A stretch of 52,377 bases of DNA from NCBI GenBank assembly GCA_024403275.1, contig JAKSSD010000010.1, positions 1-52,377 of the forward strand, in the 5' to 3' direction. Shown piece after piece: positions 32,174-45,798 of the stretch. Position numbers and translations under genes: made by a program. Source of the DNA: Lachnospiraceae bacterium (lineage in GTDB: Bacteria; Bacillota; Clostridia; Lachnospirales; Lachnospiraceae). The notes under the pieces were generated by a model. That model saw nothing but the letters and a program-made list of their open reading frames with translations. It searched no databases and was not told where the DNA came from. Numbering within the stretch: the first letter of the stretch is position 1; each line of letters starts with the position of its first letter.

Positions 32174-35100
32174 TTATGCCAAACCTTTTTCCTCAATCCA
32201 AGTATAGGTGAGTTTCTTATTATGTTTGATTTTACGTCCTCTGATTGCGAATACAAGAATTGATAAAAGTGTAAATACAACCATAATTCCTAATAGGATA
32301 AGCATTTCAGGTAGAATATCCCATCCACCGCTAATAGCAGATCTGAAGGCGTCAACAGTATATGTGAAAGGCATATATGTATGTAAGCTATTAGCAAGAT
32401 TGCCGGATACTTCTATTGGATAGGTTCCAGCTGAGCCAGCTAACTGAAGTACCATAAATATTAGCATTATAAAACTTCCAACCTTACCAAGAAGGATATT
32501 AAAGAAGTACATAATTGACATAAATGCTATGGCACTAATAATAGCAACAATTGCTGTTTTCAAAATACTTTCAGGGTTAAAACCAAGGAAGAGATGTAAT
32601 ACAGTGATTGCCACTAGTGACATTATTATGGCTACAGGATAGGCTACAGCAGCTTTACTTGCCCACCATGCAAAACCGTTTTTAAGTTTTGAGTTGTATT
32701 CAACAAGCGGATACATAAGGCAGAAGGCAAGACAACCAACCCAAAGACCTACAGATAACATATAGGCAGCCATTGCATGTCCGTTATTTTCAACTTTGGT
32801 AATAGTAGTTTCATCTGTTTCAACAGGAGAAACAAACATATCAATATTTTTATCAGAAGCAAGATTTTCTTTGACTTCAGCTGAACCATCATAAAGAGCA
32901 CTATTAAGTTCTTTTGTCCCAGCTTGAAGAGTAACAAGTCCTTCACCAAGTTCTTTAGAACCATCAGCTAGTTTGTTTGCACCATCAGAAATATCAACTG
33001 CTCCAGAGTTGAGTTTTTCGATTCCACTGAGGATTGTTTCATTATTGGCTACGAGCTCGCTTGTACCATTGGCAAGTTTAGTAGCACCATTATTTAATTC
33101 ACCATTATGACTTTCAAGAGTTGCAAGTCCATTGTTTAAGGTTTTAACACCATCCGTGTAAGTTCTAATTCCTGATTTAAGTCCGTTTTCACCAACAACC
33201 TTGGAGTATAAGGTGTCAAGACCATTAGAAACGAGTGAAATTCCTTCAAGAAGTCCTGCTTTACCATCATTAGCTGTAGTTTGAGTAAGACCAGCTTGAA
33301 CATTCTGTAATCCACCAAGCATTGAGTCAAGTGCATTTGATGAAGCTGGGAGAAGCTGATCTGCACCGTTTGAAAGCTGTGCAATGGAAGACTTGAGAGT
33401 AGCTATACCATCACTATTTGAAAGATTTGTTAAAATCTGTCCAGCATCGGTAAGATATGTGCCAGCATCCTGAACATCTGTGCCTGTGTTTTCAAGATTG
33501 GTTTTAAGGTCATTAAGGTTTGTTCCAGTATTTTCCAAATCGGTTTTGATACCATATAAGGAAGCACCTGTGCTTTCAAGATTAGTTTTAATATCACTCA
33601 TGTTAGAGCCAGCAACGTTTAATGAAGCTCCAGCCTGGGTAAGAGCATCGCCAGCAGTATTAAGACCTAAACCAGCATTTGCAATGTTTGTTCCAGTAGT
33701 TGAAAGATAACCTGCAACATTTTCAGAACTTCCATTGGCAGGGTCATAAAGAGCTGCAAAAGCAGTCTGTAATTTTATAATGTCTTCGGTTGAAAGAGGA
33801 GCATCAGGGTTGTTATTAATATCAGTAAGAACTTCTCCAAGATTAGATATTGAAGTATTTAATTTTGTACTTGCAGATGCAAGATTAGTGCCGGCATTGT
33901 TTAAATCAGAAGCAACATTTGCAATTGATGTACCAGCATTCTGGAGGTTGGCACCTGCAGAGGTGACATTTCCTGCGGCATTTGCAAGATTAGATCCAGC
34001 AGCCGAAAGAGTATTGCTTGCATTCTGAAGATTAGTTCCCGCATTTGTTAAATTACCAGCTGCAGTCTGAAGATTAGTGCCAGCCTGAGGAAGTTCACTG
34101 CCAGCTAACTGAAGCTTACCACCTGCGCTTTGTATATCAGAACCAACATTTGTTAATGATGCAGTCATTGCATCCAGGGCATTTCCATCCCCATTAACAG
34201 CGCTATTTAATGCGGAAATACCATTATGCAAGGTATTAAGACTTTGTGAAGCGTATTTAATGTCGTTTACATTTTTTTCAGAAAGGCTTGTGTCTAACGA
34301 ATTCTGCATAAGAGTAAGACCATCCTTAAGCTGAGTGGTGCCCTGCTTTAAATCGTATACTCCATTTGCAACTTTATCTACACCATCATTGATTGCACTA
34401 TTATTAGCTACTAGCTTGTCCGAACCGGATTTGGCACTTGAAACTCCTTTTGTATATTCTGGAAGCTTATTGCTAAGAGAATGAGTTCCATCATTTATAA
34501 GATAGGTAGCATCCATATATGTTTCAAGGCCATCTTTTAAATCGCTGCTTCCATCCTTAAATGTTAGAGCACCATTTGCGAGAGTGTAAAGATTTTCTGT
34601 AATAGTAGTATTACCTTCAATTAAAGATTCCTCTCCATCAAGCATTTCTCTTGTTCCATCGTATGCTTCATCAAATCCATCAGCTACATCTGAAAGACTA
34701 TCGAATACGGCTTCAGTATAAGTAGTAGTAACTTCTTTCATTATATTAGCTTTGATTTCTTTAACAGCACTTTCGCCAAGTTTCATGGAAATATAGTTTT
34801 TACCGGGATTGGTATAATACTCGAGAGTCATTTTTTTAGGATCTGTATCCATTACACTTGATGCACATTTAGAGAAGTCTTCAGGAATAATTATTTTCAT
34901 ATAATATGTTCCATTTTCAAGACCATTATTAGCAGTTTCTTCATCCACGATATTGAAAGCCATTGAATCATTAGTGGAAAGTGAATCGGCCAATTCCTCG
35001 CCGACATTTAGTGTTTTGTTTTTGTACTCAACCGGAATATCCTTGTTGACTACAGCAACCGGAAGATACTTTAAATCCCCATAAGGATCCCACATTGAGC

Positions 35101-35203
35101 TGAGAAAAAATCCTGAATAAATTGAGGGAATCAGTATGATTGCAGCAAGCACGACAAGAAGTAAACGGTTATGAAGTAAGTTTTTAAGTTCTTCTTTAAT
35201 CAT
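32174..35203 (-). CDS. Giant YhgE/Pip-family membrane protein with long pseudo-repeat stalk
   Basis: 1009 residues from the second ATG (35203), where AAAGGA is nine bases upstream. N-terminal membrane segment (about 10-30) and the YhgE/Pip domain (VAVVNKDIPVEYKNKT...PEDFSKCASS), then roughly 650 residues of repeats. The middle repeats are 7-residue-like units on a TNLxxAGxxL theme; flanking parts use LxxGLxxLxxGxxxL heptads typical of this family. Five to six membrane segments close the protein (ABC-2-like). Relatives act in phage infection (Pip) and in ESX/type VII export (EsaA). Its regulator is probably the divergent TetR gene. Confidence 0.9.
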   Translation of the reverse strand: MIKEELKNLLHNRLLLVVLAAIILIPSIYSGFFLSSMWDPYGDLKYLPVAVVNKDIPVEYKNKTLNVGEELADSLSTNDSMAFNIVDEETANNGLENGTYYMKIIIPEDFSKCASSVMDTDPKKMTLEYYTNPGKNYISMKLGESAVKEIKANIMKEVTTTYTEAVFDSLSDVADGFDEAYDGTREMLDGEESLIEGNTTITENLYTLANGALTFKDGSSDLKDGLETYMDATYLINDGTHSLSNKLPEYTKGVSSAKSGSDKLVANNSAINDGVDKVANGVYDLKQGTTQLKDGLTLMQNSLDTSLSEKNVNDIKYASQSLNTLHNGISALNSAVNGDGNALDAMTASLTNVGSDIQSAGGKLQLAGSELPQAGTNLQTAAGNLTNAGTNLQNASNTLSAAGSNLANAAGNVTSAGANLQNAGTSIANVASDLNNAGTNLASASTKLNTSISNLGEVLTDINNNPDAPLSTEDIIKLQTAFAALYDPANGSSENVAGYLSTTGTNIANAGLGLNTAGDALTQAGASLNVAGSNMSDIKTNLESTGASLYGIKTDLENTGTNLNDLKTNLENTGTDVQDAGTYLTDAGQILTNLSNSDGIATLKSSIAQLSNGADQLLPASSNALDSMLGGLQNVQAGLTQTTANDGKAGLLEGISLVSNGLDTLYSKVVGENGLKSGIRTYTDGVKTLNNGLATLESHNGELNNGATKLANGTSELVANNETILSGIEKLNSGAVDISDGANKLADGSKELGEGLVTLQAGTKELNSALYDGSAEVKENLASDKNIDMFVSPVETDETTITKVENNGHAMAAYMLSVGLWVGCLAFCLMYPLVEYNSKLKNGFAWWASKAAVAYPVAIIMSLVAITVLHLFLGFNPESILKTAIVAIISAIAFMSIMYFFNILLGKVGSFIMLIFMVLQLAGSAGTYPIEVSGNLANSLHTYMPFTYTVDAFRSAISGGWDILPEMLILLGIMVVFTLLSILVFAIRGRKIKHNKKLTYTWIEEKGLA

Positions 35204-35461
35204 AATAAGCATTCCTTTCTAACAAGTGTTTTGTTTTTACAAATAGATAATAAGTTTACTTTAGGGTAAAAACAATGGTCAAATAATGCACAAATGTTTA
35301 TTAATATACAAAACTATAAGAGGATGGGGCGTAAAGTGACAAAAATGTTACACTAATGAGTAAAAACTAAAGATAATTGTTGCGAAAATTTTACTGATAA
35401 GATATTATTTATGCATAAGCGGATATAAAAACACAAAAATAATACACAAGTGAGAAAAATT

Positions 35462-37923: not shown

Positions 37924-39993
37924 TTATTCGTTATATTTAAGTAAATTATAGGAATGCCATCCTAACATATCAAGAGGACTATATTCATTAAAAGCATCCA
38001 ATTCTTCAATAGTATAAGAAAGTTCTACATCTGAATCAGTAAATGTATTTGAGAAATCTGACATTTTGTCGATAGGACAGTTGGCAATATAAATATTATC
38101 GAAATATCCTAAACTTGAGATACTCAAAAGATTTGCAGAATAGTCTATAACTATAGTGTTCTTTCTTTCTCCGTCAGCTGTAAGCTTGAATACTTTATCA
38201 ATAGTATCGTTATCGTAGTCAATATGGTTTTTGTAAGCAATAAGTGTACTAAACTCTGAGTTTTCCAGGAATGAAAGGGAAGTAAGCTCGTTGTTTGATA
38301 CATTTATAATCTGCTCGCGGAAAGAAAATTCAGATTTAAGACTTAAAGCAGGAATATCTTTTAACTCATTATTTGAAAGGTTGAGTTTTTCAAGACCTGT
38401 AAGCTTTTCGATTCCAGAAGCTGATAAATCTTCAAGACCACAGCCAGAAAGGCTTAAAGTGGTAAGAGTAGTCATCTTACCAATGAAAGATGGGTCTTTT
38501 ATTGAAATATTGTCAAGGTAGAGTTCTCTTAAATCAGCTGAATATACAGTAATATAAGAAATGGCTTCTTCTGTAATATTTGTATTAGAAAGATTAATAG
38601 AAGAAATATAAGATATGCTACTGTTATAAGGATCTAAAAATTCAAGGTTATCTATAGGATTGCCAGATAAATCAATTTCGCTGACTGAATCACAGTTCTT
38701 AAGGAAACTGGCATCTGTCAGACCGCAGTTTGATAATAAGATCTCGTTAGCATTAATTGTCAAAGCAGGTGAAATATTATTAATATTGCAATTGCTAGCA
38801 TCAACGCTATACATAGATGTGATACGAGACAGAGGGTCAAGGTTTGTTACGCCTGTATTTGAAATATCCAAGGATCCATAAAATTCGGCTGGAAGATCAG
38901 TAAGATCCTTAAAATCCATAGTGTCCGTAATACTTAAAGAACTAAGAGATGTCATTGACTGAAGGAATGAGTAGTCAGTAATTCCTGTACAGTTATGAAG
39001 TGACAAACTTGTTATGTTTTCAAGGCCTTTAAGCTTACCTAAATCCGTACCATCAGTAAAAGTACAATCTGTAAAAGATAAAGTAGTAACCGAATCAAGC
39101 TTATTAAGCTGGCTAATAGATTCAGGTGTGACAGTATCTTTGTTTAAAAATACAGATGAGTAGTAAGATGAAATCGCATAGTTTGCGGTAATCTGAATCT
39201 TCTCATCATTATTTACGGAAGAACTACCTGAAAGTAATGTCTTAATAACGAAAAATCCACCAACACCACCTACAATAAATACGAGTATGATAATTACAAG
39301 AACAATCGGAAATATGAAGAAAGGAAACTTTTTCTTCTTTTTCTGATTTATTTCAACATCTGAATCACTATTATCTTCGAAAGATGGAGTGGTAGTTTCA
39401 GCCTTAGAAACAGGGGTATCTATTGTAGTGGATTCAAAAGATACAGTTTCGCTGTTGTCAGAAGACACGACTTTCTCAAATTCCTTGTGTGCAGCTATAT
39501 CCTTATCTACAGCTTCGTCGTAAATTCTGTCGGTAACATCTTCTTCATTTTCATCACGAAGACAGCTATTGAAAAGGTTAGTAGTTAATAGTTTATTAAA
39601 GAAACTTTCATCATCAGGATATTCGTATTTCATAACGCTCTGATAAGAAGAAAGCTGTAATTCCATTCCAAGTGAAAAATCAGTTGGTTCAAGAATAATA
39701 CATAAGAATTTCTTATTTCTTGAAATTGTAAAATTTATTTCACGACGACAGTTCTCAGATGCAACGGAATTAGGTGATGCAAAAAAGATAACTGTATCGC
39801 ACATATCAATATGTCTGGCAATATATTCCGGCCATTCGGATCCAGGTGAGATACCATCGTCATACCATACTCTGTAGCCCCTTGCATTAAGGGATTCAAT
39901 GATAGGATATACCTGTTCAGAATCTTTATGAGCGTAACTAATAAATATGAAATTTTTAGAACCTTCATAAGAATTAAAATTGCATTTACTCAT
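37924..39993 (-). CDS. TIR - transmembrane - leucine-rich-repeat receptor-like protein
   Basis: 689 residues from ATG 39993, with AGGAGG nine bases upstream (a frame 11 codons longer exists). Residues 14-140 are a TIR domain: IFISYAHKDSEQVYPII, RVWYDDGISPGSEWP, VIFFASPNSVASENC and RREINF, where Glu85 is in the position of the NADase glutamate. A 75-residue acidic linker, then KKKKK and a 27-residue membrane helix (about 223-250). The outside 430 residues are leucine-rich repeats (about 300-640) with NLS/SNNEL and LxxLxLxxC signatures, internalin-like. Positive-inside rule puts TIR in the cytoplasm and LRRs outside. First clear gene of an operon with an FMN enzyme and TIM-barrel isomerase. Confidence 0.9.
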   Translation of the reverse strand: MSKCNFNSYEGSKNFIFISYAHKDSEQVYPIIESLNARGYRVWYDDGISPGSEWPEYIARHIDMCDTVIFFASPNSVASENCRREINFTISRNKKFLCIILEPTDFSLGMELQLSSYQSVMKYEYPDDESFFNKLLTTNLFNSCLRDENEEDVTDRIYDEAVDKDIAAHKEFEKVVSSDNSETVSFESTTIDTPVSKAETTTPSFEDNSDSDVEINQKKKKKFPFFIFPIVLVIIILVFIVGGVGGFFVIKTLLSGSSSVNNDEKIQITANYAISSYYSSVFLNKDTVTPESISQLNKLDSVTTLSFTDCTFTDGTDLGKLKGLENITSLSLHNCTGITDYSFLQSMTSLSSLSITDTMDFKDLTDLPAEFYGSLDISNTGVTNLDPLSRITSMYSVDASNCNINNISPALTINANEILLSNCGLTDASFLKNCDSVSEIDLSGNPIDNLEFLDPYNSSISYISSINLSNTNITEEAISYITVYSADLRELYLDNISIKDPSFIGKMTTLTTLSLSGCGLEDLSASGIEKLTGLEKLNLSNNELKDIPALSLKSEFSFREQIINVSNNELTSLSFLENSEFSTLIAYKNHIDYDNDTIDKVFKLTADGERKNTIVIDYSANLLSISSLGYFDNIYIANCPIDKMSDFSNTFTDSDVELSYTIEELDAFNEYSPLDMLGWHSYNLLKYNE

Positions 39994-40082
39994 TTGGGTA
40001 AACCTCCTAAAATGGGAAAAGTCCAATTAAAATTAATTATATCATATAGAAGGCATAAAAATAAACAAATTTGCTTATGAAA

Positions 40083-43164: not shown

Positions 43165-45798
43165 ATGAAAAAAAGACTGGTTGCAGGGATTCTTGCACAT
43201 GTAGATGCAGGTAAGACAACTCTTTCAGAAGGCCTTTTGTATGAAACAGGAGTTATTAGGAAAAGAGGGCGAGTAGATACCAAAGATGCCTATCTTGATA
43301 ACGATAACGTTGAAAGGGAGAGAGGGATAACAATCTACTCAAAGGTTGCAAAGATTCCTTTAGAAGAAACTGAATTAACGCTGGTAGATACACCAGGACA
43401 CATAGACTTTTCCACTGAAATGGAAAGGTCTTTGTCTGTATTGGACGTGGCTATTCTTCTTATAAGTGGATCTTCAGGAGTGCAGCCTCATACCAAAACA
43501 CTTTGGAGTCTTTTGAAATATTACAATATTCCTACATATATTTTTGTAAATAAGATGGATATGCCAGATACAAATCATGATGTATTGTTGGCTACTATCA
43601 AAAAACATTTATCTGCTAATGCAGTAGATTTTAATGTTGATAATCAGGATGAAATGTATGAGGAAATCGCAACCTGTGATGAGTCCATGTTAAATGGATA
43701 TCTTGAGAATGGCAGCATATCTGATGATGAAATCAAAAGCGCAATTAAAAATAGAAAATTATTTCCAGTATTTTTTGGCTCAGCCCTAAAAATGACAGGA
43801 ATAAGTGAATTTGTAGAAGGTCTTAACAGATTTCTAATTGATTCATCCTATGAAGAGAAGGAAAAGGATGAGTTTTCAGCCAGAGTATACAAGATTATTC
43901 ATGATTCGATGAATAAAAGAATTACATTTATGAAGGTGCTTTCAGGCAGTCTTAAAGTAAAAGATATGCTAGGAGAAGAGAAAGTAAATGAAATACGTAT
44001 CTATTCTGGTGAGAAGTTTGAGATGGTTAAAGAAGCGTATGCGGGAGAAATATGCGCTGTAACAGGAATACTTGAATCTACGAATGGTCAGGTATATGGA
44101 AAGAATTTTAAAACTCAGAATTCAGTTCTGGCGCCTGCTTTAAGTTATGCGGTTCATTATCCATGGGATATGGACAAAAATAAAATGTATGGAATTCTCA
44201 AGGAGCTTGAGGATGAAGATCCATCTTTAAATGTTGAATACAGGGAACAGACTGGAGAAATATTCGTCTCATTGATGGGAGATGTGCAGACAGAGGTTTT
44301 GAAGAGAACTCTTATGGACAGATATTCTGTTAAGGTTGAATTTGGTGACGGAAAAGTTTGCTATAAGGAAACTATAGACGGAATAACGGTTGGAGTAGGT
44401 CATTTTGAACCATTGCGTCATTATGCAGAGGCACAAATCAAATTAGAACCATTAGAGCGTGGCAGTGGAATGGAGTTTGAGACAGATGTCAGCGAGGATA
44501 TTCTTGATAGAAACTGGCAGAGACTGATAATGACTCATATGTGCGAGAGAGAGCATAGAGGTGTTCTTCTTGGTACCCCTATAACAGATATAAAAATGAC
44601 TTTGGTAGCAGGAAGAGCTCATATAAAGCATACCGAAGGTGGAGATTTTAGACAGGCAACCTATAGAGCAATAAGACAGGGCTTGATGAAGCTTTTGGTA
44701 AGTGGAAATTGCAGGTTGTTAGAACCTTATTATGATTACACATTAGAGATTCCAGATTCATATATAGGAAGAGCCATGAATGATATTACATCGATGTGTG
44801 GCAGTGCGATAATCAGTGAAAATGATTACGAGAATGGAATAACAATTCTAACAGGAAAAGCACCAGTTTCTACTATGAATGGATATATGAAAGAAGTAAT
44901 CTCGTATACCAAAGGACTTGGTAAATTAAATCTTAATCCTTCTGGATATGATATTTGCCATAACGAAGAAGAAGTATTAGCTGCATCACATTATAATCCT
45001 GATGCAGATGTGAGAAATCCAAGTAGTTCAGTATTCTGCTCTCATGGTGCAGGAACTGTAATAAACTGGGATGAAGTAGATGATTATAAGCATGTTGAGT
45101 ACACTCCTGAAATGGGTGCTAGAGTTGTAGATACTGATAGCTACTCAATGGAAGCAAATCGCTTAAGACGTGAAAGAGAGAGAAGGTCTGAAGATGAAAG
45201 ATTTGTTTCTGTAGAAGAAGTTGATAGTATTATCAAGTCGAGCGGACACAATAATGCCAATGGCAGAAAGAGTGCATATAAAGGTATTTCTGCTGCAATG
45301 AGGGAGAGAAATTCTACAGTTTCAAGAAAAGAAGCCAAAGAAGTTGTATACGTTGGCACAGTCCATAAAGAGAAATATATGTTAGTCGACGGATATAACG
45401 TAATACATGCATGGAAGGAACTGGATTCGTTGGCAGCTAAATCACTGGATGCAGCGGTTGCAAGTCTTAATGATGTATTAAGCAACTATCAGGCAATAAA
45501 AGGTATCAGAATGATTGTAGTATATGATGCCTATAAAGTAGTAGGTCATTCTACAGAGGAGAAGAATTACAACAACATTACAATAGTATATACAAAAGAA
45601 GCACAGACTGCTGATCAGTATATAGAAAGATATGCTCATGAAAATAGCAAGAAATTTGATATAACTGTTGTAACGTCTGATGGACTTGAACAGATAATTG
45701 TAACGGGTGAAGGTTGTGGCTTGTTCTCTTCAAGAGAATTTGAGGAAGAAGTCAAAAGAACCTGTGATGATTTCTACGAAAAATTCAATGTTAAATGA
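43165..45798 (+). CDS. TetM-like ribosome-protection GTPase fused to a YacP/Rae1 nuclease
   Basis: 877 residues. The first 650 are an EF-G-like ribosome-protection-protein GTPase: P-loop AHVDAGKTTLSE, DTPGHIDFSTEM, NKMD and GSALK, then the later domains ending in NPSGYDICHNEEEV. After a charged linker (about 650-735) comes an NYN-type domain: YMLVDGYNVIHAW, MIVVYDAYKV, EAQTADQYIERYA and VVTSDGLEQ, the motifs of YacP/Rae1, which in B. subtilis cleaves mRNA at the ribosomal A-site. Tetracycline resistance is possible but unproven; many such chromosomal proteins have other roles. Ribosome site weak, 12 bases after the AKR stop, so coupled. Confidence 0.9.
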   Translation: MKKRLVAGILAHVDAGKTTLSEGLLYETGVIRKRGRVDTKDAYLDNDNVERERGITIYSKVAKIPLEETELTLVDTPGHIDFSTEMERSLSVLDVAILLISGSSGVQPHTKTLWSLLKYYNIPTYIFVNKMDMPDTNHDVLLATIKKHLSANAVDFNVDNQDEMYEEIATCDESMLNGYLENGSISDDEIKSAIKNRKLFPVFFGSALKMTGISEFVEGLNRFLIDSSYEEKEKDEFSARVYKIIHDSMNKRITFMKVLSGSLKVKDMLGEEKVNEIRIYSGEKFEMVKEAYAGEICAVTGILESTNGQVYGKNFKTQNSVLAPALSYAVHYPWDMDKNKMYGILKELEDEDPSLNVEYREQTGEIFVSLMGDVQTEVLKRTLMDRYSVKVEFGDGKVCYKETIDGITVGVGHFEPLRHYAEAQIKLEPLERGSGMEFETDVSEDILDRNWQRLIMTHMCEREHRGVLLGTPITDIKMTLVAGRAHIKHTEGGDFRQATYRAIRQGLMKLLVSGNCRLLEPYYDYTLEIPDSYIGRAMNDITSMCGSAIISENDYENGITILTGKAPVSTMNGYMKEVISYTKGLGKLNLNPSGYDICHNEEEVLAASHYNPDADVRNPSSSVFCSHGAGTVINWDEVDDYKHVEYTPEMGARVVDTDSYSMEANRLRRERERRSEDERFVSVEEVDSIIKSSGHNNANGRKSAYKGISAAMRERNSTVSRKEAKEVVYVGTVHKEKYMLVDGYNVIHAWKELDSLAAKSLDAAVASLNDVLSNYQAIKGIRMIVVYDAYKVVGHSTEEKNYNNITIVYTKEAQTADQYIERYAHENSKKFDITVVTSDGLEQIIVTGEGCGLFSSREFEEEVKRTCDDFYEKFNVK

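Follow-up and report, generated by a model that had tools for sequence, protein, structure and literature searches.

The gene at positions 37924..39993 on the minus strand of the window (the whole stretch of Lachnospiraceae DNA analyzed here, 52,377 nucleotides long) appears to encode a real and new variety of bacterial TIR protein, one that would work somewhat like a Toll receptor while standing outside that family. Our leading reading, at a probability of roughly 0.52, is a single-pass envelope sensor in which a TIR domain sits on the chassis of the receptor Ser/Thr kinases, with an N-terminal cytosolic head, one helix and a C-terminal ectodomain. The domain order is conserved, positive charges lie mostly on the TIR side of the one helix, the TIR is under tighter constraint than the leucine-rich repeats (LRRs), and similar C-terminal parts occur behind TIR heads and kinase heads. 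From these features we infer that the protein is exposed at the surface, binds a ligand and clusters. The LRR ectodomain, predicted to lie outside, would most likely bind its ligand at the cell surface or in the envelope, and ligand binding or crowding would gather several copies. The long flexible linker would allow the TIR heads to meet, and the assembled heads would form the output within envelope signaling.

No description of a bacterial TIR-TM-LRR protein was found in the literature searched, which was covered mostly at listing level and included few subscription papers. If the reading is right, bacteria independently reached the Toll-like solution of LRRs outside and TIR inside by reusing the receptor kinase layout, and TIR domains serve in outside-in signaling, beyond phage defense. 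The family would also offer a natural test case of TIRs that have the catalytic Glu and lack the WxxxE Trp.

Domain Architecture

The open frame of 689 residues begins with an ATG at 39993, and an AGGAGG resembling a ribosome-binding site lies 10-15 nt 5' of it (40003-40008). A longer frame beginning with the TTG at 40026, as given in the ORF listing, was judged less likely. All features lie on the minus strand. The N-terminal TIR_2 domain (residues 16-120, 39634..39948; Pfam E 5.4e-22) passes the PF13676 gathering cut-off with 79 bits against 28. It is followed by a low-complexity linker ending in Lys218-222 (39328..39633), a single predicted membrane helix found by hydropathy scan (residues 223-250, 39244..39327), and a 439-residue LRR ectodomain (residues 251-689, 37927..39243) assigned through Pfam, a match to internalin A and an LRR pattern count. 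The original prediction of a TIR with Glu85, a polybasic stop, one helix and about 430 residues of LRRs had placed each element correctly, as judged by Pfam, hydropathy and sequence.

The repeats had also been called internalin-like, and this description holds. The C-terminal half matches LRR_4 (E 3.6e-20) and LRR_EndoS (E 3.4e-12) in Pfam, and internalin A is among its LRR kin of solved structure (E 7.5e-13). The LRR pattern occurs 12 times beyond residue 264, with 2 of these overlapping, whereas 5000 shuffles averaged 3.4 occurrences and reached 11 at most. Hydrophobic autocorrelation over lags of 15-29 gave no clear peak in the LRR region because the repeats are irregularly spaced. In an NCBIfam search with the 689-residue protein, none of the listed models scored above its cut-off.

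Internalins and the EndoS LRR proteins are exported and are not known to carry a TIR. The window protein shares their LRR subtype, but it has no signal peptide and its helix is internal. An internalin-like adhesin or host-interaction protein, with a TIR that anchors it, regulates it or targets host TLR signaling, would suit both this ectodomain and the animal gut origin given in the titles of many of the 80 homologue records. However, constraint is strongest on the TIR, which falls on the predicted cytosolic side and comes with no export signal, while close kin fuse the same kind of TIR to FHA and FtsK, both of which are intracellular. We consider such a role very unlikely.

Membrane Topology

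The helix has a mean hydropathy of 3.27 over its best 19-residue window and is the sole hydrophobic segment in the scan of all 689 residues, which also gave no N-terminal hydrophobic segment or signal peptide. Within 15 residues of the helix, there are 5 Lys and Arg residues on the TIR side and 2 on the LRR side. This single helix, with its positive charges on the N-terminal side, agrees with an N-in/C-out receptor chassis. The hydrophobic segment is kept in all 23 TIR-TM-LRR proteins found here, with best-window values of 2.44-3.33, and the same scan found a second segment in none of them. By the same count of Lys and Arg, 20 of the 23 have more on the TIR side, two are tied and one is reversed. 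The positive-inside rule acts here as a tendency, since several homologues carry Lys and Arg on both sides of the helix. The placement of the TIR inside and the LRRs outside, proposed from this rule, thus agrees with 20/23 proteins as a prediction of a single pass common to the homologues. Because the single-pass layout is kept among them, the arrangement is TLR-like with its ends swapped, as had been proposed.

Alternatively, both parts may be cytosolic, with the hydrophobic segment serving only as a tether or buried in the fold. Some relatives that place LRR_5 or Sel1 repeats behind the TIR have no helix (L086, L098, and L101), so repeats behind a TIR need not lie outside. The Cys content of the ectodomain (1.59%) separates neither topology, as the mean is 1.38% for secreted and 1.81% for cytosolic proteins. 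This alternative is nonetheless hard to credit given the strongly hydrophobic segment in 23/23 proteins. In addition, a more distant TIR protein, L017, has a trypsin-like protease behind its helix, which fits a predicted outside C-terminus.

Animal Toll and Toll-like receptors likewise combine an LRR ectodomain, one helix and a cytosolic TIR in one chain (PMC7075850, PMC6040629). In Toll-like receptors, however, a signal peptide and the LRRs are N-terminal and the TIR is C-terminal, whereas the window protein has its TIR at the N terminus and no such signal. Its TIR belongs to a bacterial TIR_2 clade whose close members bear other C-terminal parts, and TLR TIRs match it weakly (TLR1, E 0.004). 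The resemblance reads as convergent. Dictyostelium TirC also joins a TIR to a single predicted helix (PMC13142454), but as described there it is eukaryotic, with an N-terminal helix and no ectodomain.

The TIR Active Site

Glu85 (39739..39741) occupies the place of the catalytic glutamate of TIR NADases, and Asn81 (39751..39753) takes the place of the Trp in the WxxxE motif. Just past the BB loop lies Trp54 (39832..39834), a residue typical of the clade. Both Glu85 and Trp54 are invariant in the 27 TIRs of alignment A3, as expected if the glutamate and the BB-loop residues persist across homologues. In a wider survey of 79 proteins including that of the window, 2 were not parsed; all 77 others have Glu at the Glu85 place, and at the WxxxE Trp place 76 have Asn and one has Glu. 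Among PDB entries, the TIR profile matches TIR enzymes that include Cat1, tir-1 and AbTIR. A comparison with known TIR NADases had been called for; when aligned with Cat1, a CRISPR-associated TIR of solved structure, Glu85 pairs with a Glu, and the place of Asn81 is held by Trp. Of the two TIR NADase features, the window protein therefore has the catalytic Glu and lacks the WxxxE tryptophan.

Mutation of the WxxxE Trp in AbTir (W204A) abolishes NADase activity, while the equivalent TcpC mutant is still active (PMC11374754). The same report finds that the WxxxE Trp is required for production of 2'cADPR by AbTir and is strongly conserved among cADPR makers. The glutamate alone is not diagnostic of an NADase, as PMC7075850 reports it at a frequency above 90% in TLR1/2/6/10 too and notes that frequency need not follow reported activity. 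The NAD-derived signal of the original prediction is weakened on both counts, and a cADPR signal in particular is less likely than was held, given the change from Trp to Asn and the Trp data of PMC11374754. If the protein is a sensor, we rank first, at about even odds, an output by protein scaffolding within a phospho-signaling network. Cleavage of NAD to a non-cyclic product is a tentative second choice, and a cyclic ADP-ribose signal would be unlikely.

The comparison with ThsB, Cat1 and AbTir bears directly on a Thoeris-like enzyme, in which stimulation would lead the TIR to synthesize an isomer of cyclic ADP-ribose, and this product would switch on a separate effector. The invariant Glu85 and the profile matches to Cat1, tir-1 and AbTIR are common ground, and weak similarity to ThsB was found in PADLOC (best E 8.1e-7, in a resource with no cut-offs) and in Pfam, where ThsB_TIR scored 20.1 bits, below the cut-off of 21.2. 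ThcB4 likewise fell below its NCBIfam cut-off, with 21 against 220. Unlike these enzymes, the window protein has Asn for the WxxxE Trp that AbTir needs for 2'cADPR, has the layout of a membrane receptor, and has no effector recognized among its ten scanned neighbors. The STALD family was found in 0/31 genus genomes, although that search gave no positive control signal. Overall, a Thoeris-like role looks quite improbable.

The own genome also holds three TIRs that retain the WxxxE Trp by eye (C93, C105, and C136). Across 182 distinct TIRs, the WxxxE Trp and the BB-loop Trp occur together in only 3; 31 have the WxxxE Trp only, 126 the BB-loop Trp only, and 22 neither. The idea that one Trp was swapped for the other was unsupported in a tree-aware test, with 3 independent pairs on supported branches, and is kept as a lead only.

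Distribution and Constraint

Matches to the window protein at E <= 1e-5 occur in 21 of 61 genomes (60 related genomes and its own). Among the 31 genomes of the genus, an intact TIR-helix-LRR gene is present in 8 (G000, G004, G012, G013, G015, G021, G022, and G025); one further copy is broken (G024) and two are cut at contig ends (G017 and G028). Alignment A1 was run against 84,980 species genomes and gave 129 confirmed stretches, and the 80 that were examined represent 78 distinct loci. By their record titles, these 80 come mostly from Lachnospiraceae, Oscillospiraceae, Ruminococcaceae and unplaced Clostridia, with a single Peptococcaceae and a single Coriobacteriales. A search for homologues that share the domain order had been suggested, and the order TIR-helix-LRR was found in at least 22 loci beyond the window (22 of the 78 examined), making 23 proteins in all. 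Their titles place them in Lachnospiraceae, Oscillospiraceae/Ruminococcaceae and Peptococcaceae. The LRRs were confirmed by Pfam in all 12 proteins scanned and are pattern-based in the other 11. Two TIR homologues (L009/L092 and L064) are interrupted, which may reflect either decay of the gene or a fault of assembly.

Across the class as a whole the clade is infrequent, with matches at E <= 1e-10 in 13 of 196 genomes, the own genome counted. The genus itself is rich in TIRs, as all 31 genomes hold between 2 and 10 TIR_2 matches at E <= 0.001. In comparison, TIR_2 was matched at E <= 1e-5 in 22 of 149 phylum genomes (own included) and in 4 of 14 control genomes. The original prediction had presented a membrane TIR as unusual, which is too strong for this lineage: in five of the seven TIR_2 matches of the own genome, the TIR is followed by a hydrophobic helix and then by a C-terminal part.

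Seven pairs of homologues were compared by dN/dS, of which three were close enough for use; in three of the others, dS was saturated in one or both parts. In the close pairs, dN/dS was 0.042, 0.092 and 0.039 for the TIR and 0.21, 0.291 and 0.288 for the ectodomain, and the linker was the fastest-changing part by dN in all three. The pair L066/L117 gave 0.054 for the TIR and 0.118 for the ectodomain, but with dS near 2.8 it is too saturated to carry weight. The TIR is tightly held and the ectodomain more loosely, and positive selection on average was not seen in the three pairs. Linker length, counted from residue 150, ranges from 22 to 167 residues across the 23 proteins, a variation that would suit signaling by proximity better than rigid coupling.

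A TIR tree was built from 69 of the 80 rows; the other 11 were left out because they were broken, truncated, short or unparsed. On the best tree the TM-LRR label must change 8 times, against a mean of 19.4 when shuffled, while supported branches force only 1 change and so do not establish a repeated origin of the order. The tree labels 'TM-other' and 'noTM' rest on a hydropathy threshold only.

C-Terminal Modules and the Receptor Kinase Parallel

The close kin of the window TIR carry a variety of C-terminal parts. Those with a helix have LRR, Sel1, TPR or parts with no Pfam match, and those with no helix have FHA, LRR_5, Sel1 or FtsK. In one of the latter, from L085 (8992-12141), the TIR is fused to an FtsK/SpoIIIE translocase that comprises alpha, motor and gamma domains. 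Among more distant TIRs in this lineage, DUF6273 or the trypsin-like protease stands behind the helix. WG-like (L062) and SecD-like (L069) C-terminal parts were guessed by eye and set aside, as neither has a Pfam match.

Bacterial receptor Ser/Thr kinases, of the kinase-TM-PASTA type known as PrkC or PknB, share the N-terminal cytosolic head, the helix and the C-terminal ectodomain with the window protein, in which a TIR replaces the kinase. The own genome has four Pkinase matches, including a Pkinase-helix-PASTA protein (L250) and a helix-free Pkinase-DUF6273 protein (L253); DUF6273 thus occurs there both behind a kinase and behind a TIR (TIR-helix-DUF6273, L003). Kinase-helix-LRR proteins are found at two loci. 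Behind the TIR-FHA gene of L077 come PP2C, a pair of Pkinase-helix-LRR genes (helices at 286 and 337) and STAS; one of the kinase matches is partial (residues 76-210), was missed by the strict kinase motif and may be degenerate. L074 has a Pkinase-helix-LRR gene, with its helix at 459, after TIR-FHA. A STAS gene also adjoins the TIR-TM-LRR gene of L073 and the TIR-FHA gene of L095. The window ectodomain matches an L077 kinase ectodomain at E 4e-13, a similarity that is partly repeat-driven. Because kinase and TIR heads share a chassis and some C-terminal parts, the "reversed" ends can be explained with no appeal to TLRs.

Some observations count against the parallel. A strict kinase motif within 3 genes was seen in only 2 of 73 neighborhoods, both beside TIR-FHA. 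Of the 31 genus genomes, 3 match one part of the L077 kinase-LRR protein and none yielded a relative that covers both. It is possible, though rather doubtful at present, that Toll-like membrane receptors make up a large class in Clostridia that has not been described before. Such a class would combine the receptor kinase chassis and interchangeable ectodomains with a single TIR clade whose site is non-canonical, having Asn in place of the WxxxE Trp and an extra invariant Trp at the BB loop. It would be wired to Ser/Thr kinase, FHA, PP2C/SpoIIE, STAS and perhaps c-di-GMP signaling, and not to Thoeris-type phage defense.

Genomic Neighborhood

Ten neighbors of the gene in the window were scanned with Pfam: an ABC2-type membrane protein, an ORF with no match, a TIM barrel, FMN_dh, a short ORF with no match, a phosphodiester glycosidase, an aldo-keto reductase, an EF-G-like protein with a YacP NYN domain, a spermine-synthase-like protein and SecA. 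None is a GGDEF, phosphatase or kinase gene, and no mobile-element, defense or effector gene was recognized among them. The FMN_dh gene lies 10 bp downstream of the TIR-LRR gene and is matched in 9 of the 31 genomes of the genus; in G013, which holds the closest homologue, the two are on different contigs. A promoter-like site for FMN_dh (11/12) lies within the 3' end of the TIR-LRR gene, in a scan that gave 20 sites in total against 19.6 in shuffles. Clustering of neighbors over 73 neighborhoods, which include 22 of the 23 TIR-TM-LRR genes (all but the unplaced L080), found no family that stays beside TIR-TM-LRR. The search for conserved neighbors suggested at the outset thus yielded no strictly conserved partner gene.

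Signaling genes nevertheless recur beside the intact genus copies. A SpoIIE-type phosphatase gene lies directly upstream in 3 of the 8 (G012 and G004 by Pfam, G022 by near-identical sequence), and in G012 it is preceded by an MCP gene. A GGDEF/EAL gene lies within 4 genes in 5 of the 8 (G012, G013, G015 and G025 by Pfam; G022 as near-identical to G012), or in 4 of 7 when the near-copies G012 and G022 are counted once. With 21 GGDEF matches spread over 2.47 Mb, the own genome has a density at which a GGDEF gene would fall within four genes on either side by chance in about 7% of cases, assuming about 1 gene/kb. The proximity looks above chance when set against this own-genome density, and both it and the SpoIIE association were noticed post hoc. 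Two stretches (L033 5067-12275 and L034 6803-12930) show genus TIR-TM-LRR genes amid MCP, SpoIIE phosphatase, and EAL/GGDEF or histidine kinase genes.

Such surroundings bear on whether the protein is instead an abortive-infection device, clustered by phage adsorption or envelope damage, whose TIR destroys NAD and makes no messenger. Conservation of Glu85 and much of the TIR core would serve this purpose, and the analogous Trp of TcpC is dispensable for NADase activity (PMC11374754). The gene is patchily present in the genus, as its 8 intact copies in 31 genomes show, and mobile-element genes lie near some homologues: IS200/IS605 by the G025 copy, a DDE transposase in L059 and KilA-N in L054. 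However, the recurring genes are those of signaling, no mobile-element or defense gene was recognized among the window's ten scanned neighbors, and the ectodomain is on average under purifying selection in the three usable pairs. A search of viral_contigs gave 0 confirmed relatives, and phage and plasmid matches never approached full length (best coverage 17% and 20%). We regard this device as unlikely, and the suggestion that the protein senses phage found no support, as the sole 'phage' match is a bacterial-looking scaffold. That record (L230, MT836178.1), an unverified 'Bacteriophage sp.' scaffold, appears bacterial by eye, with ORFs that resemble a carboxypeptidase, a pseudouridine synthase and a subtilase, and its TIR is C-terminal.

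Several other arrangements were noted. In three genus genomes, tandem genes for TIR-helix-Sel1-like and TIR-helix-LRR_5-like proteins immediately precede a rex-like repressor gene (L041 7720-10590, L042 7783-10968 and L043 7876-10451), and an NAD(P)HX-repair gene lies two genes further along; the rex-like and repair assignments on L041 are Pfam-based, and all others were made by eye. A tie of these TIR proteins to NAD metabolism is possible. In L077 (1-10413), L095 (2-6179) and L073 (1003-9507), TIR genes cluster with STAS and ABC exporter genes, the exporter being assigned by Pfam on L073 and by a shared BLAST cluster on L077 and L095. Small ORFs at these three loci resemble Nif11-type leader peptides by eye, with no Pfam match. 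Within the window, the EF-G-like translation factor is fused to a YacP-type NYN domain (43165-45798), and the ABC2_membrane_3 protein of 1012 residues (32174-35212) is YhgE/Pip-like by eye, a family that includes a lactococcal phage receptor.
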